Positions 18,601 through 59,613 of a DNA stretch of 64,000 nucleotides are shown piece by piece. The stretch covers positions 62,001 to 126,000 of the forward strand of contig JAJDTP010000004.1 of NCBI GenBank assembly GCA_022827095.1. The letters run 5' to 3'. The position numbers were made by a program, and so were the translations under genes. Numbering within the stretch: the stretch's first letter is position 1; each line of letters begins with the position of its first letter. Origin of the DNA: Dehalococcoidia bacterium (GTDB lineage: Bacteria; Chloroflexota; Dehalococcoidia; Lucifugimonadales; UBA3495). The notes under the pieces were generated by a model. It ran no database searches and was not told the DNA's origin. It saw only the letters and a program-made list of their open reading frames with translations.

Positions 18601-21600
18601 ACCTCGATGCGGAACTGGTGCGTACCCGACCGGGAGTTGCCGGTAAGCCATTCGAACGTCTCAGTTTCGGTTTGGCCGGGGAGCACGTGCGGGCTCCGGG
18701 TTTTTGGCTGCCTGCCGCCCTGAGGGAAGTGCAGGGTAATCGGGATTCTGGTCGCAACCGGCCCGTCGTTGCGCGCCTTCACCGTAATGGTCACTGGCTC
18801 GCCGACCATCGGCGCTGTCGGGTATGCCGAGACATCCACGATTGTTGCCGTGACCACCAGCGAGGAGACGCGGAACGGCAACTCCATCGATGTCCCCCTA
18901 CCGGCGACGTTGTGCTGCTCTGGCACGGTCGCGGTAAGCATGTGATCACCCACGGCATAGTCTCGGGTTCTCCAAGTGAAACGGGCCGTCTCGGTAGACT
19001 CTGCCGGCACCGATGGCCTGAGTGTCTCGGGTTGCTTCGTTGCCGACGGGAAGCGGAGCGTTACTGGCACGTTGACGGTGGCCGGCCCGTTGTTCCGTAC
19101 CTCCACCTCGATGGCGACCTTTTCACCCTGCATCGCAGTCCCTTCGGGCGATGCATTGATGCCCAGTATCTCGGCGTCAATGTGAAAGATCACCTCTGAT
19201 TTGACGGTGGCGACGGCGCCGAAGTCGTCCGAGGACGCCATCAACGTTAGCGTGTGTTGTCCCAGCTTTCGTGCCGAGGCCGGGACACGCCAGGCAATCT
19301 GCTCCTCAGATTGACCATCCGGCGCCAGCTCGTCGATGGTTTGTGTGCCTATCGGTTCGGAATCGTCGTCTGCATACAATTCCAGGCTCAGCGGCAGAGC
19401 TATCTCGCTGTTGTTCTGAACCGTCAGGGACACTGTGGCCTCGTCGCCCAAGATCAGCACGTCCGGAGAAAAGACGACATCCTTCATCGTGACGTTCACC
19501 AACGGAGCCATGCGAGTAATTTCAACGGTCGCCGCGTTGTTTTCCAGGGACTGGTCGACCGCCGCCGCAAGCCGTACCTCGACCGTATGGACGCCGGGCA
19601 GTACATCCCGCAGCGGCATTGCAACGGTTTCCGTCCTGGTCTGGCCGTTTGGAATGACCATCGGGCGCTGGTGCAGTACGCGGGAGTCCGTATCGTCATC
19701 GGGGACGAGAACGAACCGTAAAGTGACCGGCTCTGTAGTCGGTCCGTCGTTCGCCGCTGCAACAACAATTTCGGCGGTTTCGGCAGCAAACGGCAGGGTA
19801 GTCTGTAGCGCGTTAACCGAAACCAATCGCACGTCTACCTCTCCGAAATCCGGCCCCGCCAGGAGTCGTACCGTAGAGACTTTGTCGCCGGTCTGTTCCC
19901 CGAGATGCAAAACGATGTTGTCCGGATGGACGATATTGATTTGATCTGTGGACTCGGTGGAGTTGTTGGCCTCGTCAACGTCCACGAAGTCGCTCGGGCT
20001 CACAATGGTGACCGCGGCCTCGAAAGGTTGGGCGTTCAGGGCCGGAAGCGCCGGAATGGTCCACGCGGTTTCGCCCTCGATCCTGCTGCCAAAAGGTAGG
20101 AAACAATCTGAAAAGCAGACCGCGCTGGCATCGCTGATCGGCTGATCATTGGGGCCGGTCATGGTGAGGGCAAGCGTGATGTCCGTTTGGCAACTGAAAT
20201 TGTAGATCCGGTAAGTGGCCCGCAGGGTCTCGCCCACCTGGTAGTCGGGCGGAGATCGCGTTTCATCGCTCAGGTCCCTGATGTCAGTGACTTGGATACG
20301 GACATCCTCGACGCAGTTGTCCACATCATGAGCGCCGTCGAACGCCGACCGGAGAAGCTGGATCTCGAGAAGGGCCTCGTTGTCATCGGCGGTGGTGTCT
20401 CCGGGAAGCTCAGCGGCGATTTTCAGCGTATGGGCGCCGACTACTTCGCCTGTTGAGTCCCATTGCAACGTCACCTCTGAAGTGGATCCAGGCTCTATGC
20501 TCGGCGTGGTTGCAGTCGCCGCAGCGGTGGTGTGCTGCAAACTCCCGACCAGGTACAGGTTAACCGGCACCGCCGCGGGAACCTCGCCATGATTGGTGAT
20601 CTTGGCAGTCACGTCCAGCGTTTGGCCGATGGCTGACACGCTGCGATTGATCGTCGCCGATGAGAGTTCTACGGCGATCACCGGGTCGCGCAGGGTTATG
20701 GTGAACGACAACTCATCGTTGTCATCACCGCTAAAGTCATCCATGCCGGCGATGACTTTCAGATCGTACTCGCCAGCGTTAACGCCGTCAGTGTCCCATT
20801 CCAGGACAGCCGCGCCCGTCTCGCCGGCCGGAATCGCCGCGATTGTCGCGCAGCCGATCTTCTGCTCCTCCTCTTCATCTTCCTCGTTCTCACAATCCTC
20901 AACGACATCAAGCCTGACCTCTACGTCGGTGACTTCGGCGCCGCTTTCGTTGCGCACCTCCACGTTGATCGACACCGCAGTGCCCGCAATGTTGTCCTCG
21001 GATGCCGGCGTTGCCGATGACAACTCTATGGGATTGCGAATGGTCACGTTGACCGACTGGCTATCGTCCCGGTCTGAAGCCTGTGCATCGGCCCCGGTGA
21101 CGACGACCAATTCAACCTGACCCGCGTCCCGCCCGGTCGTGTCCCACTGGATACTGGCGTCTTCCGTATCGCCGGCGGCCACGGAGTCAATAGTCGCGGA
21201 AGCGAGCGCTTCGTTGCCCCTCGATTCGTACAGGCCAACCGTCACGCCGGTCACTTCATCCTGCCCGACGTTTTCGACTTGAGCCGTGAAATTGACGGTA
21301 CCGCCGGTCACCGCCTCGGCGCTCGTCGGGGAGACATTCTTGATTATCAGCCAGTTTCGGATTTCGATGCTTTGGGACGCCTCGTTGTTCGTTTTATCGG
21401 TGTCGCCGATGGTGTGGATGACCACTGCCAGCTCATAATCCCCCACTGCGACGTCGGCGGTGTCCCAATCGAATGATCCCTTTGCCGAACCCCCGACGGC
21501 TATGGTTGGTATGGTGGTGGTAGCAGCGGGTTCCTGCTCCCCACGCTCTTCGTCATCCACCGTCACGTACAGGCTGACCGTCACCTGGCCGGTGGCGTGG

Positions 21601-29323: not shown

Positions 29324-29400
29324 GCCGAGGTAGCTCAGCCTGGTAGAGCACGGCACTGAAAATGCCGGTGTCGGTGGTTCGAATCCGCCCCTCGGCACCA
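29324..29400 (+). tRNA. tRNA-Phe (GAA)
   Basis: Complete cloverleaf: acceptor GCCGAGG with CCTCGGC, D-arm AGCTCAGCCTGGTAGAGC, anticodon stem CGGCA/TGCCG with loop CTGAAAA giving anticodon GAA (29358-29360), T-arm GGTGGTTCGAATCCGCC, and discriminator A followed by encoded CCA (29398-29400). A T-run (TTTTTTAATT) follows directly and may terminate it. Confidence 0.97.
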
Positions 29401-29551: not shown

Positions 29552-30884
29552 GTCCCGTCAAGTGGAGTGAAAGGCGTCACCCTTGTTGATGCTGTTCAGG
29601 CTGCCGCCTCCAGGATGTGGCTGGATGACAGGGTCTCGGTAGATGTGTCGTCGGTGAAGGTCAGGTAGCGCCGGCCTTCGGCCCATTCGTTGTGCTGCTA
29701 GGCCAGCACCGCACCCACCAAACACCTGGTGGCGGCCCGGTTGGGGAAGATGCCCACCACGTCGGTGCGACGACGGATCTCCTTGTTCAGTCGTTCCAGC
29801 GGGTTGTTGGACCAGAGCTTCTGCCAGTGAGATACCGGGAAGGCGGTGAAGGCCAGGATGTCAGCCAAGGCATCCGCCAGCATCTCGGCGGCCTGGGCGT
29901 GGACTGCTTCCGGCGAAAGCTGCTTGTAGATGGTGCGCACCATGGTGGCCACGCCGGGCTGGGACCGCTTGGGCACCCGGGTCAGCAGGTTGGTCATGAA
30001 GTGGGTGCGGCACCGTTGCCAACTGGCTCCGGCAAACACCGTGGCGATGGCGTTCTTCAAACCCTGATGGGCATCTGAGATGACCAGTTCCACCCCGCTG
30101 AGACCCCGGGCGTTCGGCGAGCGCAGGAAGGCCAGCCAGCAGGCACCGTCCCCGCTGGCTCCCACGTCCATGCCCAATATCTCCCGCTGACCGTGGGCGT
30201 TGACGCCGGTGACCACCACCGCACTGACATTGACGATGCGTCCGCCCTCTCTGACCTTCTGGGTCAACGCGTCCAGCCACACGTAGGGATAAGGCCCGCC
30301 GTCCAAAGGCCGGCCCAGGAAGGCTTCCACCACCTGGTCCAGGTCCCGGCAGATGCGTGAGACCTGGCTCTTGGAGATCCGGCGCAGCCCAGGGACTTGA
30401 CCAGGTCATCCACTCGCCGAGTGGACACGCCCTCCACGTAAGCCTGCTGGATCACTGCCAGCAACGCCTTCTCGCTGCGTCTCCTGGGTTCCAGCAGGCT
30501 GGGGAAGTAGCTGCCCTCCCGGATCTGGGGGATGCGTAGTTCCATCGTACCCACCCGGGTGTCCCAATCTCGGCTGCGATAGCCGTTGCGGTGGGTAAGG
30601 CGATCCAGACTACGTTCACCATGCTTCGCGCCGATTTGCGCCGACACCGCGGCGTCCCCCGTGTCGAGGCACGGGACAGGCTATGATGCCCTCCACCAAC
30701 ACCCCGCAGGGCTTCCCGCAGAAAGTCCACGTCGCCTTCCATGCCGCGCTTGCACAGTAGCTCCAAAGGGTCCATGCTGTTCTTGGCCATCGTCGTACTC
30801 CTTGTTGGGTTTGTCACTTCCATCAAGGATGACGCAGTGGCCATCTTCGTGCCACCCGGTTTCCGTTACACCACGTGCAGGGAC
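29552..30884 (-). mobile_element. IS256-family element, inactive
   Basis: About 1.33 kb, with imperfect inverted ends: GTCCCGTCAAGTGGAGTGAA at 29552-29571 against the complement of the DNA at about 30862-30884 (GTCCCTGCACGTGGTGTAA). It encloses one decayed transposase gene on the minus strand. It sits against a different IS remnant (30892-31044), as if inserted into it. Confidence 0.7.
29596..30790 (-). pseudogene. IS256-family transposase (mutator type), multiply broken
   Basis: Starts at ATG 30790 (M-A-K-N-S-M-D-P-L-E-L-L). The frame shifts in the region near 30650, then R-T-H-R-N-G-Y-R-S-R-D-W-D-T-R-V-G-T and Y-F-P-S-L-L-E-P-R-R-R follow in a second frame. Near 30385 a second shift moves to the frame with W-L-D-A-L-T-Q-K-V-R, V-I-S-D-A-H-Q-G-L-K-N-A-I and W-Q-R-C-R-T-H-F-M-T-N-L-L. 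Some residues before A-E-M-L-A-D-A-L-A-D are missing. A TAG at 29698-29700 precedes the usual end, Q-H-N-E-W-A-E-G-R-R-Y (TGA 29596-29598). So there are at least two shifts, one deletion and one nonsense change. Confidence 0.85.
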
Positions 30885-39076: not shown

Positions 39077-41476
39077 CTATCCGACTTCTTCCGCGACTCC
39101 GTTGAACATCCGGTACCCGACTCGGGGCTCCGTCAAGATATAGGTGGGCTGATTAGCGGCGTCGCCAAGCTTGCTGCGCAGTCTCTTGACCACCTCACGC
39201 ACCAACCATGGATCTCCCATCCTCTCCGGCCCCCAGACCCGTCGCAGTAAATGGTCGTGGGTCAGGACACGGCCGGCGTGCACCGACAGTTCGTAGAGCA
39301 AACTGTACTCGGTGGGAGTCAATTCCACCGTTCGTCCCGCCAATCTCACCAGACGTTGGGCATAGTCGATGGCCAGCTCGCCCACCCGGAAGGGCTCGGA
39401 AGGCACTGCCACCTCGGGCGCGGCTCGCCGACGCAGTGCCGCTCGGATCCGAGCAGCCAGCTCCGTCGGCGAGAAGGGTTTGACCACGTAGTCGGAGGCC
39501 CCCATGTCGAAGGCCCTGGCCACCACGTCCTCCTGTCCGTATACCGACACGAAGATGACCGGCACATCCGCGCTCCTGAGTATCCCTGTCATCAACTCGA
39601 TGCCGTCGCTGCCTGGGAGCATTAGGTCCAGCAGCACCAGGTGCGGCTTCTCTTCCTCCATGAGGCGCGGCACTTCTTCGGGGTCTCCGGTCACGATGGG
39701 CAAATATCCCGCCTTGGAGATGGCGTCGCGAACGTAACGGAGCGCCTGGGGGTCATCGTCCACCGCCAGGATGCGCGCCCTGTCCCGGGACGCTCTACCG
39801 GCGCGCGCCAAATTCGCTGAGGCCCTCGTTACTGGATACTCCGCGGCATCCGCTACCGGAACGGTGAATGTGAACCGCGCTCCCAGCGCCCGGCCTTCGC
39901 TGTCCGCCCGGATGCGGCCCCCGTGAGCCTCCACAATCCCTTTGCAGATCGACAGGCCGAGGCCCGAGCCAGTGATCCCCTCGTCCCTGGCGGCCCCGCC
40001 GATCCGGGAGAATTTTCGAAAAAGGTGCGGCAGCATATCCGCAGGGATGCCGCGACCTTGGTCCGAGACCGAAACTGCCACGTGGGTACCATCCCGCACT
40101 GCGGACACACGAACCGGCGACCCGTCCGGCGAGTGCCGAACGGCGTTGGACAGCAGGTTGCCCAACACCTGCGCTATGCGCCGCCGGTCTGCCATCACCG
40201 GCGGCAGATTCGGTTCCAGGTCTATGGTCAACCGTTCGCTTCCCCCCGCCCCCAGAAACCTGCTGCGAGCCTCGTCCACTATCTCCGCCAGGTCCACCGG
40301 CGCCGGATCCACCGACAGCGAACCGGCTTCGATCCGGGCCACGTCCAGAAGGTCACCGATCAGGTCCTGCATGTGGTCCACCTGCTGATCCATGATCCGG
40401 TGGAACTGGGTCATAACTGCCGGGTCAAGGTCAGACGCGCCGCTGAGCAGGGTAGTGGTGGATCCCTTTATGGTGGCCAGCGGCGTGCGCAGCTCGTGGC
40501 TCACCATGCCCAGGAAATCCGCTCGCAGCCGCTCCATCTCTTCCAGCGGCGTCATGTCCTGGAGAGTCACCACCACCGAGGCCACCTCCCCTGTCACCGA
40601 ACGGATCGGCGTGGCGTTAATCAGCACGGTTACCCTGCGGCCGTCGGGCACCTGCAGCACGATCTCTTCTGCACGGACCGTCTCACCGACCCTGCGGCGA
40701 GCGGCAATGGGGAAATCCTTGAGGGAGACCTCTTGGCCGTCGGCACGCACCCAGGTCATCACCTCAGCAAAGTCCGCCACTGACTGGTCAGGGTCACGAA
40801 GATGGTCGACGATTCGGGGCGCTTCCCGGTTGAAGGATACGGGCGCCCCGGTCCTGGCGTCCAAAACCACCACGCCCACCGGCGAAGTGTTTACCAGGGT
40901 CTCCAGGTCGTCCCTCGCCCGCTGTTCGTCCCGGTACCGGCGGGCATTGGCGATCACCAGAGCCGCCTGGGACGCGAACATCACCAGCGTCTCCTCGTCC
41001 TCCTGAGTGAACTCGGGACGACTTAATTTTGCCGCCAGGTAGATGTTACCCAAGCGCTGGCCCCGGTGTAACAATGGCGACGCCAGGAAGGAAAAGGTTA
41101 TGCCCGACGGCAGAGGCACACGAACCCCGGGGACGCCCATCTCGCTCAGCATCTCCAACAGGTCCGGATGCCGCACCGGAACCGTGATGCCGCCCAGGCG
41201 CTCGTAGATCCCAGGCGCCGTCGGTATTTTCCAGAGCGCGCTCTCCTCCTCGGCGGTCATCCCCGATGACAGAAAGTTCTCCACCTCTCCGTCATCGTCG
41301 TGGAACGTCATCACCCCGTACCGGGCATCGGTCAGTGATCTGGCGGCCTCCAGAACTCCCTGCAGCACTGTGCCGAACTCCAGACTCTCGTTGATGCGCA
41401 GGCTGGCCTCGCTCAAGCGCGTCAGACGCTCACGCAGCGCCTCATTCTCCATCTGCAGGTGGTCGGACCGGTTCAT
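39077..41476 (-). CDS. Single-chain GAF-PAS-histidine kinase-REC-winged-helix protein
   Basis: 799 residues from ATG 41476 (GGGAGG 11 bases upstream); the frame is open to 41530. Order: short coiled coil (1-30), GAF (about 33-185), PAS (about 195-320), HisKA with M-V-S-H-E-L-R-T-P-L (about 330-395), and HATPase with N-L-L-S-N-A-V-R-H-S and G-S-G-L-G-L-S-I (about 430-545). Then come a receiver with phospho-acceptor in V-L-L-D-L-M-L-P and Y-V-V-K-P-F (about 575-690), and an OmpR-type winged helix ending Y-I-L-T-E-P-R-V-G-Y-R-M-F (about 705-795). No membrane helix, so the signal is cytoplasmic (GAF/PAS ligand). A whole phosphorelay with output DNA-binding in one polypeptide is unusual. Target genes are unknown; the upstream region (41477-41645) is AT-rich. 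Confidence 0.92.
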   Translation of the reverse strand: MNRSDHLQMENEALRERLTRLSEASLRINESLEFGTVLQGVLEAARSLTDARYGVMTFHDDDGEVENFLSSGMTAEEESALWKIPTAPGIYERLGGITVPVRHPDLLEMLSEMGVPGVRVPLPSGITFSFLASPLLHRGQRLGNIYLAAKLSRPEFTQEDEETLVMFASQAALVIANARRYRDEQRARDDLETLVNTSPVGVVVLDARTGAPVSFNREAPRIVDHLRDPDQSVADFAEVMTWVRADGQEVSLKDFPIAARRRVGETVRAEEIVLQVPDGRRVTVLINATPIRSVTGEVASVVVTLQDMTPLEEMERLRADFLGMVSHELRTPLATIKGSTTTLLSGASDLDPAVMTQFHRIMDQQVDHMQDLIGDLLDVARIEAGSLSVDPAPVDLAEIVDEARSRFLGAGGSERLTIDLEPNLPPVMADRRRIAQVLGNLLSNAVRHSPDGSPVRVSAVRDGTHVAVSVSDQGRGIPADMLPHLFRKFSRIGGAARDEGITGSGLGLSICKGIVEAHGGRIRADSEGRALGARFTFTVPVADAAEYPVTRASANLARAGRASRDRARILAVDDDPQALRYVRDAISKAGYLPIVTGDPEEVPRLMEEEKPHLVLLDLMLPGSDGIELMTGILRSADVPVIFVSVYGQEDVVARAFDMGASDYVVKPFSPTELAARIRAALRRRAAPEVAVPSEPFRVGELAIDYAQRLVRLAGRTVELTPTEYSLLYELSVHAGRVLTHDHLLRRVWGPERMGDPWLVREVVKRLRSKLGDAANQPTYILTEPRVGYRMFNGVAEEVG

Positions 41477-41645
41477 AGCTGTGTTGCCTCCCTGAGCGAT
41501 CGGGACGCCGGTTACGTACGCGCCGCACATGATACAAGAAATATTACATTATTGACCGTTTTATTACGCATATCATATGAACGCTTGTCTACAATCCGGT
41601 GAACGTCAATTGATAAACGCAGCGCGTCGCCCGTAGTGGAGGCGC

Positions 41646-43451: not shown

Positions 43452-45482
43452 ATGGATTTGACGGCGAACCTAAACCTTGCACAAGAACTGCTGCTTCTGG
43501 TTATGGATGAGGACAGTGGCGAAGCTACGGTCGTTCCATCGCGCACAATGGGCTATGCGCTTGCCGCGGCGGCGCTGATCGAACTCGAGCTGCAACATCG
43601 CATTGATACCAGCCCCGAGGAGCTGATAGTCGCCGACCCCACGCCGCTGGGAGATGACCTGTTGGACCCGGTTCTGGGGGATATCGTCGAGTTGTCCCGT
43701 GAAGCTCCCCGCAATGCGGAGTTCTGGATCCGGCGGATGGCGGCGCGTTCGGAAGAGCTACGCGCCACGGCGTTGGCCGGGTTGGCTACCCACGGATTGG
43801 TCGAGGCTGACGATACCGGCTTTTTCTCGCTCTCCCGATTGGCGGCGCGGGCTCGGCGCTACCCGGAAGCCGGCAGTCGTCAAGCTCAGGAAGTTCGGCT
43901 TCGGGTTTTGCAGGAGATTTTCGGCACCGAGATTCCCGACCCACGGGACATAGCCATGATCAGCCTGGCCCACGCGTGCGACATATTCCAGAGGATTTTG
44001 CCCGCTGACGATTATGAAGAAGTCCGCGAGCGGATCGAACTGATCTCCCGGTTGGAACTGGTGAGCCGCTCTGTCGTCGGCTCGATTCGCAACTTGACGC
44101 TGGCCGAAGCCTACGCCCAGCATCGGCACATACGGGAGAAAGGCGGCGGCTGGCCACGCGCTTCGGGGTATTTGCCAGTCATCGGCCATGCACTGCAATT
44201 CCGCAATACCATCAACGGATTTCTGACGGAACAGTACCGAAACCTGGGCCCGGTGTTTGAAATATCTTTGCTCGGCAAGAAATGGCTGGTGCTGGCCGGA
44301 CCGGAGGCAAACCGATTTCTGCTGCAGGATGGCAAGGAATGCCTGCATACCGATCATGTTACCTGGCAGGGGTTCGCCCAGCAATTCGGCGGCACCAGGG
44401 CCATCGCCGGGATGGACGGCCCGGAACACGTGCGCCTGCGACGGCTCATGCGGGACGGTTACTCCCGCGGGCAGTTGGTGAGGGATCCAACCGAGGCCGT
44501 GGCTATTGTGGAGAATGAGATGCGGCAGTGGCCGGAAAATCGTCCGGTTTCGGTTTACCCCAGCGTGCAGCGTATGGTGGTGGATCAACTGGGCACGCTG
44601 ATGTCCGGCATATCTCCCCGGGAAAACGTGGAGGACATACTCACCTTTATCCATGCGCTGGAAATGGTCTATATGGCCAGAATGTACCCGAGGTTCATGG
44701 CGCATACGCCCAAGGTGCGGCGCGCCCGCCGCCGCGTCGAGGAGCTCTTCGAGCGAGTGCTGGCCGCCCATGAGCCGACGCTACGCTCCGCAGAAACGCC
44801 GAACCTTTCCGACACCCTGATGGAAATGCGGCGCTCGGCGCCGGACTTCATCACGGACAAGAACCTGTTCGTTGACTCCATGGGGCCATTCCTGGCCGGA
44901 GCCGACACTTCATCCGCGGCGACTTCCTTCATGCTCTACTCCCTGATGAAGAACCCCGACGTGCTGGAGCAGGTGCGTGAAGAGGCCGATCAACTGTTTG
45001 CCAACGGCGCGCCCACTGCGGCCGGCCTGAACAACATGCCCGTCACCCAGCGGGCCGTCCAGGAAACACTGCGGCTGCATCCCATTGTGCCGGTAATGGT
45101 GCGAACCGTAGCGAACTCTTTTGAATTCGCCGGCTACTGGATTCCCGCTGGCACGTCGGTCTGGGTAGCCATGCCGGTGTCGCATCACTTGCCGGAGCTA
45201 TACCCGGATCCCGAGCGTTTTGATATCGACCGCTTCTTGCCCGAGCGTCGGGAACACGGCCAGCCGGGAGCCTACGCTCCCTTCGGCTTCGGACCCCACA
45301 GCTGCCTGGGACAGGGAGCGGCACAGGTCCAGATGACGCTCATCAACGCGACAATCCTGAACCGGGCGGAAATCGTCCTGGACCCGCCCGATTACCGGAT
45401 GAAACTCGATTCCATACCCACACCCAGCCCGAACCGCAGCTTTAAAATCCGACTGACTCGATGGCGACAAAAGGGAGGATAG
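43452..45482 (+). CDS. GPP34 (GOLPH3-like)-cytochrome P450 fusion protein
   Basis: 676 residues from ATG 43452 with GAAGGTTGG upstream. Residues 1-215 are a GPP34 domain: L-N-L-A-Q-E-L-L-L-L-V-M-D-E-D-S-G near the start, a helical body (A-A-A-A-L-I-E-L-E-L), and L-I-S-R-L-E-L-V-S-R-S-V-V-G-S-I at the end. In eukaryotes this domain binds phosphoinositide lipid; bacterial versions are uncharacterised. Residues about 230-670 are a complete P450: I-helix A-G-A-D-T (482-486), E-T-L-R (538-541) and heme loop F-G-F-G-P-H-S-C-L-G (611-620; axial Cys618). Heme-thiolate monooxygenase activity is likely; the substrate is unknown. Stop and the next gene's ATG are 4 bases apart. Confidence 0.93.
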   Translation: MDLTANLNLAQELLLLVMDEDSGEATVVPSRTMGYALAAAALIELELQHRIDTSPEELIVADPTPLGDDLLDPVLGDIVELSREAPRNAEFWIRRMAARSEELRATALAGLATHGLVEADDTGFFSLSRLAARARRYPEAGSRQAQEVRLRVLQEIFGTEIPDPRDIAMISLAHACDIFQRILPADDYEEVRERIELISRLELVSRSVVGSIRNLTLAEAYAQHRHIREKGGGWPRASGYLPVIGHALQFRNTINGFLTEQYRNLGPVFEISLLGKKWLVLAGPEANRFLLQDGKECLHTDHVTWQGFAQQFGGTRAIAGMDGPEHVRLRRLMRDGYSRGQLVRDPTEAVAIVENEMRQWPENRPVSVYPSVQRMVVDQLGTLMSGISPRENVEDILTFIHALEMVYMARMYPRFMAHTPKVRRARRRVEELFERVLAAHEPTLRSAETPNLSDTLMEMRRSAPDFITDKNLFVDSMGPFLAGADTSSAATSFMLYSLMKNPDVLEQVREEADQLFANGAPTAAGLNNMPVTQRAVQETLRLHPIVPVMVRTVANSFEFAGYWIPAGTSVWVAMPVSHHLPELYPDPERFDIDRFLPERREHGQPGAYAPFGFGPHSCLGQGAAQVQMTLINATILNRAEIVLDPPDYRMKLDSIPTPSPNRSFKIRLTRWRQKGG

Positions 45483-46898: not shown

Positions 46899-49598
46899 GT
46901 GAAATTCCTGTCGTTCGGCAACAACATAAGACAATATCTCCGGCCGGCAGCGCTGGTATTGGTGGCGGCGGTCATCTTCGCCCTGATCGCTCTGGCGATT
47001 TTCGCGCCGTTGCAAGGGGCAGCCCCGTCCCAGGGGCCGCCCCCTCCGGTGACGCCGCCGCCGGTGCCGACGCCTACTCCGGTGGTTCTGGGAGTTCCGG
47101 CCAAGGTGGAAGCCACGCCCACCGGTCGTGCCGGCGAGGTTTTCGTGGTGTGGAAGCCCGCGCAAAACGCCACCGTCCACTGGGTCTGGTCGGCGAAGTG
47201 GGACAACACGGGCGGCAAATGGACCCGGGGCGAAGAGGGTTCCGTGGTCGTAACCGGCCTGGAAAGCGATCAGGATTACTGGTTCCGTGTCATCGCCGGC
47301 CGGGAAATCCCGGGCCAATCTACCCAATGGTCCAGATGGAGCAATTGGGCCAAAGCTACGCCCAAGGAGCAGGCGTTCGCCATTGAACTGGTCTGTATCA
47401 ACGTCGTGCGCAAGCCCTGCCAGGAGCTGGCCGCAACCGACGTATCCCCGGGGTTTGGCGGGTTCATTGAGCGGGTCAAACACCGCACCGGCGGCAGCGT
47501 GACGTTCAATCTCACTTCCTACTCCGAACGCGAACTGCCCGACAACGAAGCCGTAGGTTTGATCAAGAGCGGCGTCGTGGACATGGCGGAAATCTATCCC
47601 GCCCACGTTTCCGGGGACCTGGCGATAATCGAGGCGGTCAACCTTTGGGGCCTCTACCCCGACCTGGAAACTCAATTCGCCGCAGTCGATAAGAGTCGCG
47701 ACGCCGTTCGCGCCGTGATTGAGCGCGACACCAACGGCGTGGTCATCACCGAACACTACACGGACAGCAACTACATCTTCTCCACCCGCCCCTTGCGTTC
47801 CCTGGATGATTTCAAAGGTTTGCGAACGCGCAGCTACCGCCCTCCGCTGACCGAGATGCTGGTCAGCATTGGCGCCGACCCCCATTTCGTCGATTACTTC
47901 GACGTGTACCGCGCGCTGCAAAGTCGGTTGGTCGATGCCGCTATCTCCTGTGGAACCTGCGGTCTCAGCCAGGGCTGGTACGAAGTCGCCAAATATCTCT
48001 ATGGACCAATCAACGGCTCATCCAGCGTTACCTGGATCGCGATGAACCGGGACCGGTGGAATGAAATACCGCCAGAGTTCCAGGCCATCATCATTGAAGA
48101 GGGCAATCGCCATTGGGAACACATGACGGATCTGGCCATTGGGGAATGGGAGCATGAAGCCATCGACGAAAATACTGAAGGCGGCATGATCCACTCCCCG
48201 CTTTCGCCTGAAATCCACGACGTGATATTCCAGGCCAACCTCTACAGCGTGCTGCCCCGCTGGGTGGAGCGGGCGGGAGGCCCCCACTCGGAAGCGGTCC
48301 GCATATTCAACGAGATCATCGGCCCCATCATCGACGTCCACATCAACCCCGACGGCTTCGCGGCATATCCGGTGCCCGGCAACCCGGGCGTTACGGAGTC
48401 GGTCTACATCAACGTCACCGATACCGCCAACGGTCCCGAAGCCATCGCCTCCATCTTTCCTTGTGACGGCCCACCGTCCCTCATCGTTACGGCACACCAC
48501 CACGCCGGCAGTCCCACCGGATCATCATGCGGCCGATATGGCGGCGCCAACTTCAACCATTCCCGGTTGGTATCCCGCGGGCACAGCTTCAAGATACCGA
48601 TGGCCTGCGCAGAACTCTCGTCGGTGGATTGCGGGCTAGCGGCGGGCGCCTACCGCCATATTTGGGACATTGGCTTTGTTGAGCGCGTCAAGCGCCGCAC
48701 CAATGGCCAGGTGCAGTTTGAGGTCACGTCGTTCTCTGAACTGGGCGTTTCCGGCGCGGACACGTTGCGCCTTGTTGAGGACGGCACGCTGTCAGCGGCG
48801 CAGACCCATCCTACGCACATCAGCGGCGATCACCCAATCGTGGAAATCAGCGGACTGTGGGGCCTGCATCCCAATCAGGCGACCAACCTCGCCGTTATCG
48901 ACGCCGTACAGCCCGCAATGGCCGAATTGACCGCGGCCAACAGCGGCGTGCAGGTCGCCTACATGATGAGTGGTGATTACTATCTGTTCTCCCGGAAGGA
49001 AGTCCACGATGACCCGCGCGACTGGCAGGGTCTCAAAGTGCGCAGCCACGACGTCGCCCTCAGCGACCTCCTGGAAGGCCTGGGCGCCGAGCCTCAGCGC
49101 CTTGCGTTCTCTGATGTGTACACGGCCCTGGAGCGTGGTGAGATTGACGGCGCGCTCACATGCGCCTCCTGCGGACATGAACAACGTTGGCACGAGGTTG
49201 CCGATTACATCATCGGTCCGTTCTACAGCCTCTCCCACAGCTGGCTAACCGTCAACCAAGAACTTTGGGACACGATGCCGCTGGACTTGCAGAATATCAT
49301 CCTCGAAGAGGGCGCTCGCCACGCCTATCTCAACCGCTATTTCCTGCTGGCGCACTCCGAGCCGGAAGCGGTTCAGAAGAACGTTGCCGAAGGTCTGAAA
49401 CCCGCGCATCTTTCCTACGCAATACGGGACGAGATGCGCCTGGCGGCCGTCAAAAATGTCATTCCCCGCTGGGTTGACCGCGCTGGCGGCCCGTACTCTG
49501 AGGGGCTATACGATATCAACGTGCTCTTCAACGGTCTCGTGTATCCAATCGTCGGCGTTTACATTAATCCCGACGGTTCCGCCTCGATAGAGCCGTAA
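46899..49598 (+). CDS. Membrane-tethered FN3 + double DctP-like binding protein
   Basis: 899 residues with GTG start at 46899; no good ribosome site is visible, so the start is less certain. An N-terminal hydrophobic helix (about 16-38) and Pro-rich linker precede a fibronectin III-like domain (about 64-155). Two TRAP-transporter DctP-like domains follow (about 157-475 and 555-880). The two copies share motifs such as Y-E-V-A-K-Y-L-Y-G-P against H-E-V-A-D-Y-I-I-G-P, W-N-E-I-P-P-E-F-Q-A-I-I-I-E-E-G against W-D-T-M-P-L-D-L-Q-N-I-I-L-E-E-G, and S-C-G-T-C-G against T-C-A-S-C-G. DctP proteins capture organic acids for TRAP permeases, but no permease (DctQ/M) is nearby. It may be a surface receptor. 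Confidence 0.8.
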   Translation: MKFLSFGNNIRQYLRPAALVLVAAVIFALIALAIFAPLQGAAPSQGPPPPVTPPPVPTPTPVVLGVPAKVEATPTGRAGEVFVVWKPAQNATVHWVWSAKWDNTGGKWTRGEEGSVVVTGLESDQDYWFRVIAGREIPGQSTQWSRWSNWAKATPKEQAFAIELVCINVVRKPCQELAATDVSPGFGGFIERVKHRTGGSVTFNLTSYSERELPDNEAVGLIKSGVVDMAEIYPAHVSGDLAIIEAVNLWGLYPDLETQFAAVDKSRDAVRAVIERDTNGVVITEHYTDSNYIFSTRPLRSLDDFKGLRTRSYRPPLTEMLVSIGADPHFVDYFDVYRALQSRLVDAAISCGTCGLSQGWYEVAKYLYGPINGSSSVTWIAMNRDRWNEIPPEFQAIIIEEGNRHWEHMTDLAIGEWEHEAIDENTEGGMIHSPLSPEIHDVIFQANLYSVLPRWVERAGGPHSEAVRIFNEIIGPIIDVHINPDGFAAYPVPGNPGVTESVYINVTDTANGPEAIASIFPCDGPPSLIVTAHHHAGSPTGSSCGRYGGANFNHSRLVSRGHSFKIPMACAELSSVDCGLAAGAYRHIWDIGFVERVKRRTNGQVQFEVTSFSELGVSGADTLRLVEDGTLSAAQTHPTHISGDHPIVEISGLWGLHPNQATNLAVIDAVQPAMAELTAANSGVQVAYMMSGDYYLFSRKEVHDDPRDWQGLKVRSHDVALSDLLEGLGAEPQRLAFSDVYTALERGEIDGALTCASCGHEQRWHEVADYIIGPFYSLSHSWLTVNQELWDTMPLDLQNIILEEGARHAYLNRYFLLAHSEPEAVQKNVAEGLKPAHLSYAIRDEMRLAAVKNVIPRWVDRAGGPYSEGLYDINVLFNGLVYPIVGVYINPDGSASIEP

Positions 49599-52472: not shown

Positions 52473-55400
52473 TCAGTTCCCGGCCGGAGGAATGAAGATA
52501 CTGGCCATAGAGTAGGGGCCGATGTAGGGGACGGCGCCGTTGCGCGTCACCGCCGCCACCTGGTAGTAGTATTGGGTATTCGGCGTGAGGCCGGTTTCCA
52601 CGTAGGGACTGCCCTTGCGATTGGTCTGGCGGACCACCCAGGACGTGTCAAAGTCCCCCGGGCCGTCGCCGTTCCACGTGCTGCGCTCGATCCGGTAGCC
52701 GGTGATAGACGCAGCGTCTCGGCCTTCCGTAACCTCATCCCATACCAGCCTGAGCCCGCGCTCTCCCTCCTTCTCGATGGTGAAATTCTGGGGCGCGCCC
52801 ACCCGGAAGTCGGCGGTGGTGGCTTTCTTGATTTGCGACCAACGCCCAAGCAACTGGCGGCGATTCTCGTCTTTGTAGCCCGCCACGCGGTAATACCGGG
52901 TGGCGCCGGGCTCCACAGTGGCATCGAGGACCGTGGTCTGGTCAGTCCAGAGCCAGGTGAGACGCTCCCAGCCGTACAACCCGCCGTCATCGGAATACTC
53001 CACCATGTACCCATCAACGCCCTTGTTTTCGCAATCGCCCTCCCGGTTCGGGTTGCACAGGCTGCTCCAGGACAGGAGAACCTCCTTTGAGGTCCTGGCT
53101 TGAACGGTGAGGCTGGGCTGCGACAGGTTTGCCGTCTTGCCCTCCTCGATGGTGACCGTGACCGGATACGACCACCCGCCCCAGCCGGCGCTGTTGCGCG
53201 CCCGGATCTGGTAGTGCCACGTTTCGCCCACCTTCCGCCCGGTGTGGGTGTAGGAGCGGGCCGACGCCGACGTCGTGGTCAGGTTGCGCCAGTTCTCGCC
53301 GTCTTCGGAGTATTGCAGCTGGTAGCCGGTCACCGGCGCGCCGCCGTCGTAGTGCGGCTCACCCCAGTACAGGGTGATGGCGTTCTGCCCGTCGGCCTCG
53401 CCGTCCAGGTACAGCCACTGGTCGGGCGGAACCGCGCCGCCGGCGCTGGCCGAGGCCGCGTTGCTCCAGGCGCCGGCTCCGGCGCTGTTGACCGCCCGCA
53501 CCCGGTAGCACCGGTAGGCCCCGGGTTCCAGGCCGTCTCCGAAGTTGCCGGCGTCCAGATACTCCCGCGCCACCGGCGAGTCGGAATAGGGGCCGCCGAC
53601 GCCGTCGAGAGCCTCCCACTCGGTTCCGCACCTCCGGGCCACCTGGTCGTAGTCCACGTAATCGATCTCGTAGGCGTAGATGGTGCTGCCGTTGTCCCGG
53701 GGCTGGCTCCAGTTCAGGCGGATGGCGCGGAGGATGTCGTCGCCCGCCCCCCGGGTGGCCCGGCTGGCGCTGAGGCTGGGCGCTTCCGGCACGCCGGCCT
53801 TGGTGGTCGCCACCGCCAGGTCCGACCAGGCGCCCAGCCCGCCGGCGTAGGCCGCCACCCGGTAGTAGCGCGTTTCCCCGCTGGGGATGCCGGTGTTGGT
53901 GCAGCTCCGTCCGGAGGCGTTGTCGCTGCGGCAGGCGTTGCTCCAGCCGCTGGCGCCGTTGCGCGACCACTGCGCCTGGTAGTGGGTGATGGGCGATCCC
54001 CCGTCGTCCGACGACGGCTCCCAGGACACCACGACCTCGCCGGGCTGGCCGGCCACGGCGGTCACGTTCAGCGGCGGCGACGCCTGCCGGTAGGTGACCT
54101 GGGACGCCGACCGGGACCACAAGCCGGGCTTGCCGGCCTCGTTCAGCGCCCGCACCCGGTAGCTGCGCCGGGACCCGCCGCCGGTGTCCGCGTAATGGGT
54201 CTGGTCGCCTGGAACCTCGGCCAGATCCTCCCAGTGAGTGCCCCGGAGGTACTGCACCTGGTAGCGGTGCACCGGCCAGTTGTTCACGTGGGGCACCGAC
54301 TCCCAGGTCAGGACCGGCGTGTTGGCGAAGCGCGGCACAGCCGGCCCGCCCGACGTTCCCGACGCTCCGCCCCCACGGGCCGTTATGGTAGCCGTGTCGT
54401 TGCCGGTGTTGTAGTCGTACACCGTGCCCTCATGCCAACTTGCCCCGCATTCCGCCTCCGTGCGGCTGCTTCGGACGCTCCCATCGCTTGCGGCGCAGAC
54501 GATTTCGCGCCATTCACGATCCGTTGTACCGTCGCACGTGGCCTCAACGGTGATGGTCGAGTCAATCTCGTTGTCCGCGGTGTTGACGCAGACCGCAGCG
54601 TACCAGATGTCGGTGGCGGCTCCGCCATCCTCACAGTCCGTCTCGTTGGCGGGGGCCAGCGTGCTGCGGTCGCTGCCGATGCACACCGTGTAGTCTGTCG
54701 AGTTTTCGATGGTTACGTCGACGTTGTCACCGGCAGCCGCGCTCAGGACGAGTGTTGGTTCGGGCTCTCCCGCGGACCGGTAGTGGTCCCTAACCCTCAA
54801 TTCACCGACATTCCAAACGCCGGTGGATCCGTCGTAGCTGCTGCTGAGCGGGCTTTTGTACAGTACCTCCGCCTCCGTGGGCAGTCCAGTGACTTGCGCC
54901 GCGGGCGCGTGGTCCGGCCCGTTGTTAATGGCGACTATCGTCAGCGCGCTCCGGTCGGCAGCGACGTGAGCACTGCCGCCGCCATCACGCACCTCCAACT
55001 CCGCGATGGGGCCGACGTGGAAAACGTAAGTTCTTTCGGCAATACTATAGCTTGTATCGTCAGTTGTATCTGTTGGTGTGCCATTGTTTTTCGCTATCGC
55101 ACCGTCGAAGTCAACCCGGTAGGTACCCAACTTACTGAACTCCGCGTACCAGGGATATGATTCTGGATCCACGTACCAGGTGCCGGAGGTCAGCGCACCG
55201 TTCGTAGCAGAACCGAACCATTCATATATGTCTGTTTCGGTCGCTGACCATGTTGCCAGCTTCCCGGGGCCTGATACATCCACATTCAAAGTAGCGGCGC
55301 GAGTGCCGTCATTGTCCACGTCAACGCCCCATTGGCTAGGATCCAGTGAAACCATCTGTTCAGTCAAGACAACACCGCGTCTGATCACAACCCCTGTGTC

Positions 55401-56768
55401 ATGCCCGGTGGACCAGACCAGATCACTCGATCCATCCTCGGAACTGGTAGCTCGACCGGAGGGATCAGGAACTTGGATTACGACCTTATCCGGCTTGAAT
55501 ACCCGGTAGGGCAGGCCGAGGTCAATCGCAGCGGACCCACCAAGGACGACGATCTCCACCGAATCCGTGGTCCCGCAAGGGAAAGTGGTTCGGCTCACAC
55601 AGTTGAACCAAGTCAACAGGCCGATTACGCCGCTATTGAACACCACTGTACGGTCAGGAGGTTCTCCCAGGCAAACTTTAGCCACGTTGTCCGATATGTC
55701 GTCGTCATATGGGCCGACGCCTGGCGGGGGATTCCCGGTCAGCGTCGCCGTCAGGCACTGTTCATTCACGACCGCGCCGTTTTTCACCTTGATCGGCAGG
55801 GTCACGGAAGTCGTGGGTTTATCGCCCACTATTGCATCCCCCTCTTTCAGTGTCCCGACAGTGAACACTTTATCGTCATCGTTGTAGCTCAAGCCCAGGT
55901 TAGCCGGAGAGTAAGTTATCTCGCGCTTGGGGGTGGCCATCGTATCTACGTCAACGGCCAATCCATCTGTCAGCTCTATGGCAACCTCCAGGTTAATCGG
56001 CGCTGGGTAGGATCCTGATGCTGGTGGGCGTGATGCTCTGGCTGTTTCGATCTTGAAATTGACGTAGTCCCCCGGTGAAGGGACTGAGTTGTTCACCGAC
56101 ACCGCGACTGAATAATTGCCCGCCGCCTGATAAAAAAGACCATTGCCTACATGACGGGTATATGACCAGACCCGAGCGGTGTTGTTTCCTTCGTGGAGGT
56201 TACTCTCGAAGCTTGACGTGGACACCGTTCCGGAGTGTTCATGGGGGTAAGCTCTATAATCAAAAAGAGAACCAGTACTAGGATCAGTATTTCTATGAGT
56301 CACTTTCGCAGTAACCGCTTCACGTTGCAGCCCCCCAAGCGCGGGAATGGACCATGTGAGCGTTCTTTCATTACTGTCCAAAGACGCGTTTCCGACCGGC
56401 ACTGCTGGCGCCTTATCAAAATGGCTTAAGTCCTTGGGGTATTCTATCGTCACCACGACTTCCACGTCGTAAGCGGTCCTGGACCCGTGGTTCACGACGA
56501 TGATGTTTAGATCGTGAAGCAACCCATTGCTCGTATGAAGAGGAACTTCCAATATCAAACCCACGTCCACATGGTCGCCGTCCTCCACTTGAGCGTATGC
56601 AACGGGCTCGTCCAGGAAGGCTCCTGACAGAACGGCCAGGATTATGGGAATCGCAATCAGTGCGATCTGGAATTTCCATCGAGTAAACACCTTGTACACT
56701 CCTGAAGAAAATCGCCATTCAAACAGTCGCGTCCCTATCCGGAGACGATGCACACGAGACTCGCCCAT
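52473..56768 (-). CDS. Large DUF11/fibronectin III surface protein (1431 aa)
   Basis: ATG 56768 (M-G-E-S-R-V-H-R); the frame is open to 56816, and no strong ribosome site decides. A signal/membrane segment (I-A-L-I-A-I-P-I-I-L-A-V-L-S-G) is followed by beta-rich units of DUF11 or CARDB type to about residue 850. Five fibronectin III-like domains follow (about 860-1431) with W-x(2-8)-Y-x-V-x-Y and A-x-N-x-A-G-x-G-x-W-S motifs. Tryptophan-rich repeats (for example W-S-N-A-A-S and W-S-Y-P-V-T) are typical of FN3 stalks. It ends V-A-A-V-T-R-N-G-A-V-P-Y-I-G-P-Y without an anchor. Probably exported adhesin; same-strand partner of 56849-59008. Confidence 0.85.
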   Translation of the reverse strand: MGESRVHRLRIGTRLFEWRFSSGVYKVFTRWKFQIALIAIPIILAVLSGAFLDEPVAYAQVEDGDHVDVGLILEVPLHTSNGLLHDLNIIVVNHGSRTAYDVEVVVTIEYPKDLSHFDKAPAVPVGNASLDSNERTLTWSIPALGGLQREAVTAKVTHRNTDPSTGSLFDYRAYPHEHSGTVSTSSFESNLHEGNNTARVWSYTRHVGNGLFYQAAGNYSVAVSVNNSVPSPGDYVNFKIETARASRPPASGSYPAPINLEVAIELTDGLAVDVDTMATPKREITYSPANLGLSYNDDDKVFTVGTLKEGDAIVGDKPTTSVTLPIKVKNGAVVNEQCLTATLTGNPPPGVGPYDDDISDNVAKVCLGEPPDRTVVFNSGVIGLLTWFNCVSRTTFPCGTTDSVEIVVLGGSAAIDLGLPYRVFKPDKVVIQVPDPSGRATSSEDGSSDLVWSTGHDTGVVIRRGVVLTEQMVSLDPSQWGVDVDNDGTRAATLNVDVSGPGKLATWSATETDIYEWFGSATNGALTSGTWYVDPESYPWYAEFSKLGTYRVDFDGAIAKNNGTPTDTTDDTSYSIAERTYVFHVGPIAELEVRDGGGSAHVAADRSALTIVAINNGPDHAPAAQVTGLPTEAEVLYKSPLSSSYDGSTGVWNVGELRVRDHYRSAGEPEPTLVLSAAAGDNVDVTIENSTDYTVCIGSDRSTLAPANETDCEDGGAATDIWYAAVCVNTADNEIDSTITVEATCDGTTDREWREIVCAASDGSVRSSRTEAECGASWHEGTVYDYNTGNDTATITARGGGASGTSGGPAVPRFANTPVLTWESVPHVNNWPVHRYQVQYLRGTHWEDLAEVPGDQTHYADTGGGSRRSYRVRALNEAGKPGLWSRSASQVTYRQASPPLNVTAVAGQPGEVVVSWEPSSDDGGSPITHYQAQWSRNGASGWSNACRSDNASGRSCTNTGIPSGETRYYRVAAYAGGLGAWSDLAVATTKAGVPEAPSLSASRATRGAGDDILRAIRLNWSQPRDNGSTIYAYEIDYVDYDQVARRCGTEWEALDGVGGPYSDSPVAREYLDAGNFGDGLEPGAYRCYRVRAVNSAGAGAWSNAASASAGGAVPPDQWLYLDGEADGQNAITLYWGEPHYDGGAPVTGYQLQYSEDGENWRNLTTTSASARSYTHTGRKVGETWHYQIRARNSAGWGGWSYPVTVTIEEGKTANLSQPSLTVQARTSKEVLLSWSSLCNPNREGDCENKGVDGYMVEYSDDGGLYGWERLTWLWTDQTTVLDATVEPGATRYYRVAGYKDENRRQLLGRWSQIKKATTADFRVGAPQNFTIEKEGERGLRLVWDEVTEGRDAASITGYRIERSTWNGDGPGDFDTSWVVRQTNRKGSPYVETGLTPNTQYYYQVAAVTRNGAVPYIGPYSMASIFIPPAGN

Positions 56769-56848
56769 GTGCACCGTCGGGTCGTTGCGGCCCGGAGGCG
56801 GTGACGCCCGCAGCAATGAAGCCGCGAGCGTCGTCGCCTGGTCGTGAC

Positions 56849-59008
56849 CTACTTCCAGGTGGCCACATGGGTAGCCGACGAGGTGAGATCGTGAGAGGTG
56901 CCTGCCTTATCGCGGTAGGTGGTGGCAACCCGGTAGTACCAGGTGCCCGCGGTAGATTGGGTATCACTGTAGGTGAGTTCGGTGCCTCTTTGCACCTCGA
57001 TGTATGGACCGGCGAACGCAGTCGCACGCTTCCAGACGTATGTCAGCTCTTGACAGAGCGGGAAGTTCTTGGGAGTCACGCTGAAATGTGTCGTCTCTCC
57101 CAGGCGCAGCTGGTCTTCGGAGTGCGCAAAGGCGAGCTTCGGGTTATTCGGCAACTCGTTGAGGACGTTAGTCACCTGGATATGCACGCCGATGTGGTGA
57201 TCGGCGACCCTAACCGTTTCTTGGTTGCCGTCACGGTCCTTCCGGTCGCTCGCGTGAAGCTTCAGGTCGTATGACCGTTGAACCTCGTAGTCCAGGTCAT
57301 CGCACATTGAGGTCGTTATTTGCCCGGCCCCGTTCACCACGAAGTTCTCACGGCCGGCGCCAGTGAGCCAGTACGTGAGCGGGTCGCCGTCGGGATCATG
57401 CGCCGGTATGGGAGCTCCCACCGCGTCGCCTGTTTCCGCAGTCTCCTGCACAGAACGCGTCACGCTGAAAAACGGGGCCAAGTTGGCCATGGCCGGTACC
57501 GTGACCGTGGCCATAGCCATGTTGTTGCCCGTATCCGTGTCCGGCACCGACACTTCGTATGGCGTCACCCTCACCGTTTTCTGCCCGTTAGCGTCCCTCA
57601 CGATATTCCCGTTGGCGTCCTTTACGTACTCCTTGATACGCAAGGTCTCCGTGGCGGAAATCGTCGCCTTGACCTTCTGCACGGTTCCCTTCGTTCCTTC
57701 CGCGACCGTCGCCGTGATGGTCAGGGTTGGGGAATCGTCGGTAGTGTCAGTGTTGTCGTCGTTGGTCACCGCCAGGTCGCCGATAGTCCAGGTGACTGTG
57801 CCGGAATCGTGAGTGACTCCAGTGGCCGCTCCGGCTGTCTTGTAGGTCAGGCCGTCTGGCAGTGTCACCTTAACCTTGGTGCCGGGAGCCGTGTCCGGCC
57901 CGGCATTGCTGGCGGTTACTGCGATGGTCACGTTGCTTGGAGGCGAGGCGGTGTCCGGCGTCGCTGTCATCCCGACGCTCAGGTCGGCCTCAGCGCCCAC
58001 GTGGATAATGTACTCCCGCACGTCGCTGTTCACGGCGGGATCCACGGAGACAGGATCCTGGGGACCGGTCAACCCGGGAGCGGAAGCGGGAGCTCGCTTA
58101 GGGTCGCCCGTGATATGCACCTGGAATTGGTACGTGCCGCGACTGGTGAAGAACCACATCGGGCGGTCGTACTTTCCGACCGGTACGGGCATCGTGCTGA
58201 CACTCGCATTGGACGAATCCCAGCGGAGCACAGGCTGACTGGGCGTGCCGTCGTACACGAGCACGTACCTGGCCTTCTGCTTGTCGATATCGACCTGGTG
58301 CACGTGGTCAACGTGGTAGTCGATCGTGGCGACTGCCCCTTCAGGCGCATCAGGGGGGGTGGTCCAGTCCGCCTTATTCAGCAGGGCGGCGGAGAACATG
58401 AGGCACAAATCGCCGTCCGCGGCGGTGTCTACTCCGGGAGGGCACGCCGGCAGCGCCCATACCATGCCGTCGCCGGGAACACTCTCATCGGGGGTTTCCT
58501 TAGCGTCGGCATCCCACAACTTCTGATACTTGGCCGTTGGGTAGTCGGTTGTGTTCAGAGTGGCCTTGTGGGTGTTAGGGATGTGGATGATGGTTTCATC
58601 GATGTTGATGCTGGACGGGGAGCGGTCGTCCCTAGCCGGTGTGAGAACCTTGCCCTTCTTGGTCACTGCCGGAACGTGCTCCACGGTAGGCGGGCAGGAG
58701 GTGTTGGTCAGCTCCCCTTCGCCCGGGTTCCACCACACGTCGAACAGGGCGATGTGCCCGGAATCGACCGCGCTGGCGGCCTCAGCGGGGCAGGGCTCCG
58801 GCGTGGGATAGCGGGGTGTCGGCGTGGGCGTCGCAGTAGGGTCGGTTGCCATCGGCAGCAGGTGTCCGCCGCCGTTGTCGGGGGCGATGGTTGCTGCGGT
58901 GTCGGCCTGGGCCGAGTTGCCGCCGGCCAGCAGCATCACTGCGGCCACGGCGAAGACGGCCAGGGCGGCCACCGCCATTACGGAAAGTTGCACGGGTTTC
59001 GTTCTCAT
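56849..59008 (-). CDS. Secreted surface protein with anchor-M-like and DUF11/cadherin-like domains
   Basis: 719 residues from ATG 59008 with AAGGTGA upstream (GTG 59020 possible). A signal peptide (V-M-A-V-A-A-L-A-V-F-A-V-A-A-V-M-L-L-A-G-G) precedes a Pro/Thr-rich segment (P-T-A-T-P-T-P-T-P). A domain at about 85-345 has D-Y-H-V-D-H-V-H-Q-V and M-W-F-F-T-S-R-G-T-Y-Q-F-Q-V-H-I, like the 'choice-of-anchor' surface domains. A DUF11-like unit (about 350-500) and a cadherin-like unit (about 520-630, H-D-P-D-G-D-P-L-T-Y) follow. It ends W-Y-Y-R-V-A-T-T-Y-R. Followed after 80 bases by the FN3 protein, so the two probably act together on the cell surface. Confidence 0.8.
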   Translation of the reverse strand: MRTKPVQLSVMAVAALAVFAVAAVMLLAGGNSAQADTAATIAPDNGGGHLLPMATDPTATPTPTPRYPTPEPCPAEAASAVDSGHIALFDVWWNPGEGELTNTSCPPTVEHVPAVTKKGKVLTPARDDRSPSSINIDETIIHIPNTHKATLNTTDYPTAKYQKLWDADAKETPDESVPGDGMVWALPACPPGVDTAADGDLCLMFSAALLNKADWTTPPDAPEGAVATIDYHVDHVHQVDIDKQKARYVLVYDGTPSQPVLRWDSSNASVSTMPVPVGKYDRPMWFFTSRGTYQFQVHITGDPKRAPASAPGLTGPQDPVSVDPAVNSDVREYIIHVGAEADLSVGMTATPDTASPPSNVTIAVTASNAGPDTAPGTKVKVTLPDGLTYKTAGAATGVTHDSGTVTWTIGDLAVTNDDNTDTTDDSPTLTITATVAEGTKGTVQKVKATISATETLRIKEYVKDANGNIVRDANGQKTVRVTPYEVSVPDTDTGNNMAMATVTVPAMANLAPFFSVTRSVQETAETGDAVGAPIPAHDPDGDPLTYWLTGAGRENFVVNGAGQITTSMCDDLDYEVQRSYDLKLHASDRKDRDGNQETVRVADHHIGVHIQVTNVLNELPNNPKLAFAHSEDQLRLGETTHFSVTPKNFPLCQELTYVWKRATAFAGPYIEVQRGTELTYSDTQSTAGTWYYRVATTYRDKAGTSHDLTSSATHVATWK

Positions 59009-59613
59009 GCTATTTTTCACCTTGTGTTCGTTCCTTTTTTGCAGGAATCGGATGCAGGGGGGCAGCAGGTGTTAGCGCACGCTGCTCCCCATCTTCATTT
59101 TGTGCCGGATTGTTGCCCCTTTGGGGCAGTCCGGCGACGTTTTCCGACGCACGCTCGGATGGATTTCGTATTTCCGGCGCGATTTTCCCGCGGGCCGCCT
59201 CCGGGGACCCGTCTGGGAATGCGGAAAGTACCAGCGATGCGGTTACCGGGCCCGCGACAGGCAGCGCCGTTGGGCGTGCCGGGGTCAGGTCCTGATTTAC
59301 GATGACTGCCATTTCGAGATCGTGTATCAAAAAAGTCAAGTGACTGATAATCGGTATCATTTGTGTCCGGGCAATGAGACAACCGGAGCCGAGGCTTCCG
59401 GCGCAGGATTGCAGTTATGTGACTTGCGGGTCGCGGTTCAATCCATCGGATTGATTACCAAAAGGACTGAGAGTCTAACACTGTGCCGGGGACATATGCG
59501 TATAATATATGTGAGATATGTGCGTATATTTATATGAGTTTATGTATGAAATTCCCCATCCGCTTCGTGATGCGTCCGTACTGCCGGTGGCGGAACCGGA
59601 GAGCGGCGCAGTG
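59009..59613. other. Divergent intergenic region with AT-rich block
   Basis: 605 bases between the surface protein and the SDR. The block at about 59492-59535 has repeated ATATG/CGTATA motifs and TATAAT (59501-59506), a possible -10 for the SDR. Elsewhere nothing is clearly coding. Confidence 0.5.
59492..59535 (+). promoter_or_regulatory. AT-rich repeat block, possible SDR control region
   Basis: Two copies of ATATG-CGTATA-like DNA (ACATATGCGTATA and ATATGTGCGTATA) lie about 23 bases apart around TATAAT. Spacing suits two binding sites of one regulator. No -35 is visible. Confidence 0.35.

Follow-up and report, generated by a model that had tools for sequence, protein, structure and literature searches.

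A widespread bacterial fusion of a GOLPH3-like domain to a cytochrome P450: a possible membrane-docked route to lipid tailoring

The window, by which we mean the whole stretch of 64,000 nucleotides analysed here, comes from a Dehalococcoidia bacterium whose lineage occurs in marine sponges. It contains a gene in which one open reading frame joins an N-terminal GPP34 (GOLPH3-like) domain to a cytochrome P450, an architecture first pointed out in an earlier note on this DNA (Table 1). The frame can be read from TTG 43446 or from ATG 43452, and ends at a TAG codon (45480-45482). The ATG, which the earlier note had also chosen, is the better start because GAAGG sits 6 nt upstream. A domain search recovered both partners: GPP34 (PF05719) scores 121.7 bits against a curated cut-off of 29.1, which places the protein in the family with a match inside the first 215 residues, and p450 (PF00067) scores 240.6 bits, with nothing else found in the Pfam scan of the fusion. 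Judged by sequence, the protein is a complete P450, combining the Pfam match with the acid-alcohol pair, the ExxR motif and the heme-Cys loop. It does not belong with the self-sufficient P450s (CYP102, CYP116B and CYP51-ferredoxin types), as it has only the GPP34 and p450 domains and no fused redox partner domain; no redox partner is encoded near the gene either.

Table 1. Features of the fusion gene and its downstream neighbour; residue numbers follow the 678-aa reading from TTG 43446.
Feature	Position	Strand	Basis
GPP34-P450 fusion gene	43452..45482	+	676 aa from ATG 43452; frame open throughout
GPP34 (GOLPH3-like) domain, residues 11-210	43476..44075	+	Pfam E 5.6e-35; fold match to GOLPH3 with Z up to 19.6
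Long helix linking GPP34 to P450, residues 205-231	44058..44138	+	AlphaFold2 model; hydropathy too low for a TM segment
Cytochrome P450 domain, residues 242-647	44169..45386	+	Pfam E 4.1e-71; best profile match Methylococcus CYP51
I-helix AGADT (acid-alcohol pair), residues 484-488	44895..44909	+	Sequence motif
ExxR motif ETLR, residues 540-543	45063..45074	+	Sequence motif
Heme-Cys loop FGFGPHSCLG, residues 613-622, Cys620	45282..45311	+	Sequence motif
Likely ribosome-binding site for the acyltransferase (GGGAGGA), inside the fusion gene at its 3' end	45473..45479	+	Sequence read directly
Membrane acyltransferase (Acyl_transf_3, MdoC-like), 419 aa	45487..46746	+	PF01757 E 2.3e-21; 4 nt after the fusion stop

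An AlphaFold2 model of the fusion, built from a 64-sequence alignment, reached a mean pLDDT of 88.6 and a pTM of 0.87. In it, the long helix closes the GPP34 domain and runs on to the P450, and hydropathy identified no TM helix anywhere in the protein. Since Foldseek with the full-length model returned only P450s, the GPP34 domain was modelled alone, and this model matched GOLPH3/Vps74 structures with Z scores of 16.4-19.6 (19.6 to 9qpq, 18.2 to 3kn1 and 17.8 to 2zih), the next fold scoring 4.0.

The earlier note treated the gene as an isolated case, which captures only part of the picture, as the fusion belongs to a widespread family with two groups, one tied to sterol genes and the other to product-capping transferases. 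We collected 88 full-length GPP34-P450 fusions spanning nine or more phyla; most come from metagenome-assembled genomes (MAGs) with sponge-suggestive names. When 84,980 species genomes were scanned, 416 relatives were recovered, and the best 79 of these 416 loci are nearly all full-length fusions, assigned by record title to Chloroflexota, Gemmatimonadota, Pseudomonadota, Acidobacteriota, Nitrospirota, Binatota, Latescibacterota, Rhodothermota and Myxococcota. Closer to the window, about a dozen of the genomes of 60 relatives encode a full-length fusion, as do 21 of 301 Chloroflexota genomes when GPP34 frames of at least 600 aa are counted. Because two-domain homologues occur in independent assemblies and both Pfam domains are present in all 64 non-redundant family members, the architecture is beyond chance. 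The same recurrence excludes an assembly error that joined two separate genes; two MAG copies (L094 and L099), in which in-frame breaks split the fusion, are exceptions.

Phylum labels change 22 times on the family tree against a minimum of 8, a pattern that fits horizontal spread and to which paralogy and contaminated bins may contribute. No plasmid locus covering 80% of the protein was found in 72,556 records. Among the best 79 of 416 hits, MAG names largely match sponge metagenome projects: the jk18x MAGs derive from the sponge Ircinia (PMC9531527), the only set tied to a sponge by text, while the sets RHO, COS, IRC and APA appear to fit the sponge hosts of PMC8163846.

GPP34 domains taken from the fusions cluster in a single clade (SH-aLRT 99) that excludes 18 stand-alone GPP34 proteins of Chloroflexota, and the P450s of the fusions fall into two groups. 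Group 1 comprises 32 proteins, including that of the window, with the usual I-helix (A/G)Gx(D/E/H)T. Group 2 comprises 56 proteins with AGHY(L/T)GS or ASxYLG(S/D), placing a Tyr at the acid position, where the MAFFT gap is probably misplaced; in examples such as L127:10001-12016 and L156:9986-12001, which read AGHYLGS or ASIYLGS, the ExxR motif and heme Cys are intact. The Tyr-bearing I-helix may give group 2 a chemistry that differs from ordinary hydroxylation. In the P450 tree, group 2 is nested within group 1, with a rooting that is weak because the outgroup is distant. Two P450s without GPP34 (L112 and L114) also nest within group 1 and so look like losses of the domain, which makes GPP34 dispensable in some settings.

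The profiles of both groups find Methylococcus CYP51 as their best match (E 7e-60 for group 1 and 3e-33 for group 2), followed in group 1 by CYP120 and human CYP51. The Methylococcus capsulatus CYP51-ferredoxin is itself a bacterial P450 fusion, but its partner is ferredoxin rather than GPP34, and the window protein carries AGADT in place of the CYP51 motif AGHHT. Membership of one CYP family usually takes 40% identity. With 22-25% identity to CYP51 structures and no AGHHT-type I-helix, the window P450 is not CYP51 itself. Nor is it a member of CYP120: the cyanobacterial retinoic acid hydroxylase CYP120A1 is its top single-sequence and Foldseek match, yet it is not fused and shares only 26-27% identity.

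On the GPP34 side, the window domain has the fold of GOLPH3/Vps74 at 21-24% identity (profile E 7e-13 to human GOLPH3), but it is fused to an enzyme and works in bacteria, which have neither Golgi nor COPI. The PI4P site of human GOLPH3, formed by W81, R90, R171 and R174, corresponds in the window to P31/R33, A40, E103 and R106, so that only the R174 equivalent is retained. Across the family alignment, Ala stands at the R90 position in 58 of 64 sequences and residues at the R171 position are mostly acidic; the W81 region of the window protein has Arg, and that of group 2 and stand-alone GPP34 proteins has Trp. With three of the four site residues replaced, PI4P binding in the eukaryotic style is unlikely, and the phosphoinositide mechanism of GOLPH3, which the earlier note had brought to bear on this protein, is not supported for it; GPP34 is just as likely to bind some different ligand, or a partner protein, as it is to bind a phosphoinositide. 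Many other GPP34 positions, such as D74, W94 and P164, are nearly invariant in the family. Since the fusion has no TM segment, GPP34 could dock the P450 at the membrane.

The second gene of the locus is the membrane acyltransferase, whose putative ribosome-binding site lies inside the fusion gene, and the two are likely translationally coupled. An acyltransferase follows directly downstream in all seven loci of the window's clade, in two of which the fusion gene is split. This constancy, together with the missing TM helix, makes plausible the earlier suggestion of a monooxygenase brought to a lipid surface. The neighbour is best described as an Acyl_transf_3 protein, as an MdoC/OpgC identity is not supported (NCBIfam PRK03854.1, 116 bits against a cut-off of 338). 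At L097:12019-13701 (+), directly 3' of another group 1 fusion, the Acyl_transf_3 domain is interrupted by ankyrin repeats. Downstream of the window's acyltransferase, the gene at 46899-49598 (+) encodes 899 aa with an N-terminal hydrophobic segment followed by two DctP-type (TRAP family 7) solute-binding stretches, forming a tandem binding protein.

Within about 10 kb, the 31 group 1 loci encode ecdysteroid-kinase/APH-like proteins (10), acyltransferases (6) and sulfotransferases (6), with at least one of these in 21, as well as MFS exporters (10) and hopene-type cyclases (3). The 45 group 2 loci are populated by RND pumps (37), HlyD proteins (29), KshA-like Rieske oxygenases (24), sterol methyltransferases (SMTs; 16) and amine-oxidase-like flavoproteins (13), and a Rieske oxygenase or an SMT is present in 32 of them. 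In Chloroflexota group 2 loci, the transporter gene encodes an MMPL protein that also gives Patched and sterol-sensing hits.

The link of group 2 to sterol genes also holds at the level of whole genomes. In a set of 61, SMT and KshA each accompany the group 2 fusion in 8/8 genomes versus 1/53 others (p 3e-9 each), and an ERG4/ERG24 reductase does so in 6/8 (p 3e-6), p values that ignore shared ancestry and bound the strength of the link only from above. Group 1 has no significant link to SMT, KshA or the ERG4/ERG24 reductase in these 61 genomes. Among the 301 Chloroflexota genomes, a GPP34 gene is present in 35, including all 22 that encode an SMT; SMT occurs in 18 of 21 fusion genomes versus 4 of 280 others, and in 16 of those 18 an SMT gene sits on the strand opposite to the fusion, no more than about 2 kb away. 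Two genomes with a window-type fusion (G136 and G272) carry a group 2 cluster on the same contig, and one window-type contig has an SMT fragment upstream of the fusion.

The window's own genome encodes no SMT, KshA or ERG24, and its one cyclase, located away from the fusion gene, carries the hopene-type DIDDTA motif. Squalene epoxidase is missing from it and is essentially absent among the genomes examined. A de novo sterol cluster or pathway (ERG24-CYP51-LSS) was thus rejected for this genome, and the cyclases beside three group 1 fusions (L118-L120) are not oxidosqualene cyclases, as they carry the hopene-type DxDDTA motif. Because squalene epoxidase is essentially absent and the examined cyclases are hopene-type, we infer that any sterols would be taken up rather than made.

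We favor a reading in which a P450 of the CYP51 clan, peripherally attached to the membrane, adds a hydroxyl group to a sterol or another triterpenoid, which the neighbouring acyltransferase then acylates, and we put the probability of this reading at roughly 0.45. The gene product would be a cytoplasmic, peripheral membrane monooxygenase in which GPP34 serves as a docking module, replacing the TM helix of membrane-bound P450s and holding the catalytic domain at the membrane, where its lipophilic substrate resides. That substrate would be a polycyclic triterpenoid, most likely a sterol from the host or the surroundings, or else the cell's own hopanoid; an outside sterol is favored because neither squalene epoxidase nor a sterol reductase was found in the genome, whose only cyclase is of the hopene type. 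The coupled acyltransferase would esterify the hydroxylated product, an order proposed mainly because, across group 1, the oxygenase precedes a hydroxyl-capping enzyme of three different chemistries. This reading draws on the fusion itself, both folds, the intact P450 motifs, the single clade of fused GPP34 domains, the tight gene coupling and the association of group 2 with sterol genes, and it presumes a substrate class common to both groups. A sterol-type substrate is accordingly less secure for the window than for group 2; the sterol genes missing from its own genome, the lack of a significant group 1 link to such genes and the three group 1 loci that adjoin a hopene-type cyclase all count against it. 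Further points against the favored reading are the largely replaced PI4P site, the absence of a redox partner gene nearby and the two P450s, L112 and L114, that manage without GPP34.

In a rival that we consider rather unlikely, the P450 of the window would act on hopanoids of the cell itself, or on a different squalene-derived triterpene from its hopene-type cyclase, and the acyltransferase would esterify the oxidised product, leaving sterols as the substrate of group 2 only. The DIDDTA cyclase of the genome and the cyclases adjoining L118-L120 speak for it. A cyclase is also present in each of the seven relatives with a group 1 fusion, but this co-occurrence carries little weight because cyclases are common in the order (44 of 60 relatives); moreover, none lies near the window gene, and G136 and G272 pair a window-type fusion with a steroid-type cluster.

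An unlikely alternative is that the P450 acts on some other lipophilic compound (a xenobiotic, fatty acid, retinoid-like molecule or secondary metabolite) whose product is conjugated and exported, with GPP34 as a membrane anchor only. CYP120 is indeed among the best matches, and the group 1 combination of P450, conjugating transferase and MFS exporter resembles a detoxification set, but CYP51 is the closest match by profile, ecdysteroid-kinase-like proteins are among the capping families, the derived sister group 2 is tied to sterol genes, and the acyltransferase is fixed in the window's clade. GOLPH3 gathers Golgi enzymes by their tails, and a GPP34 that is a protein adaptor rather than a lipid binder, assembling the acyltransferase, a methyltransferase or a transporter beside the P450 as a metabolic complex, would suit the largely missing PI4P site, the invariant positions and a coupled neighbour that is a membrane protein, but we find it improbable, as those positions may serve the fold only, the interaction is a prediction, and the remaining chemistry equals that of the triterpenoid hydroxylation we favor, from which sequence can hardly separate it.

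For the family as a whole, we offer a more tentative reading than for the window gene: the fusions may be horizontally spread, membrane-docked sterol oxygenases of sponge symbionts, in which GPP34 brings modifying enzymes to sterol-bearing membranes for sterol or isoprenoid metabolism. Group 2 would perform unusual P450 chemistry with Tyr for the I-helix acid, and the hydroxylated products of group 1 would be acylated, sulfated or phosphorylated and then exported. Sterol clusters of sponge symbionts (ERG24-CYP51-LSS) and bacterial SMTs are known, with sterol genes spread by transfer (PMC9531527, PMC10070321). These come from the same kind of bacteria and partly the same MAG set as the fusions, but the reports name no GPP34 protein (PMC9531527, PMC10070321), and the fusion clusters differ in combining Rieske, SMT and MMPL or RND genes, with no lanosterol synthase adjoining the fusion.

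GOLPH3 proteins have been studied mainly in eukaryotes, and the role of bacterial GPP34 is almost unknown. The earlier note's view that these proteins are uncharacterised is nearly true, the one bacterial GPP34 study found in our literature search being that of Streptomyces SCO4440, which has a membrane or cell-wall phenotype; unlike the window protein, it is unfused and paired with a D-Ala-D-Ala carboxypeptidase gene, with no P450 link reported (PMC12402492). In the open-access papers searched, none relevant to GPP34 with cytochrome P450, or with sponges, was found, in keeping with the earlier impression that the domain pair had not been described. We regard GPP34-P450 as a P450 fusion whose partner is of a new kind, and since the family spans at least nine phyla and one of its branches adjoins sterol-modifying genes, it suggests an undescribed membrane-docked route to tailor sterols or similar lipids. 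Because the neighbours of the fused enzyme point to a chemistry, a function for a bacterial GPP34 becomes directly testable. If the docking reading is true, a folded adaptor would hold this P450 at the membrane instead of a TM helix. Should the substrate be a sterol, many phyla of sponge bacteria would join the sterol modifiers, with a bearing on the makers of unusual sponge sterols, some of which are used as molecular fossils.

Several minor observations accompany these results. 1-Deoxyxylulose-5-phosphate synthase is the entry enzyme of isoprenoid synthesis, and stand-alone GPP34 genes lie beside or near its gene in five related genomes (L060-L063 and L204). Upstream of the fusion, the window encodes a one-chain two-component system of 817 aa (39077-41530, -) with GAF, PAS, histidine kinase, receiver and OmpR-type DNA-binding domains, and similar proteins occur near the group 1 fusions L109, L110 and L124. 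Three very large repeat proteins, all on the minus strand, may act at the cell surface or in contact with a host: one of 2424 aa has CARDB repeats (15660-22934), one of 1447 aa has fibronectin III repeats (52473-56816) and one of 723 aa has DUF11 (56849-59020). Finally, the window holds a Mutator-family transposase remnant (29698-30333, -) with a tRNA-Phe gene nearby (29324-29400) and, at 8988-10364 (+), a gene for an integrase-core (rve) protein.
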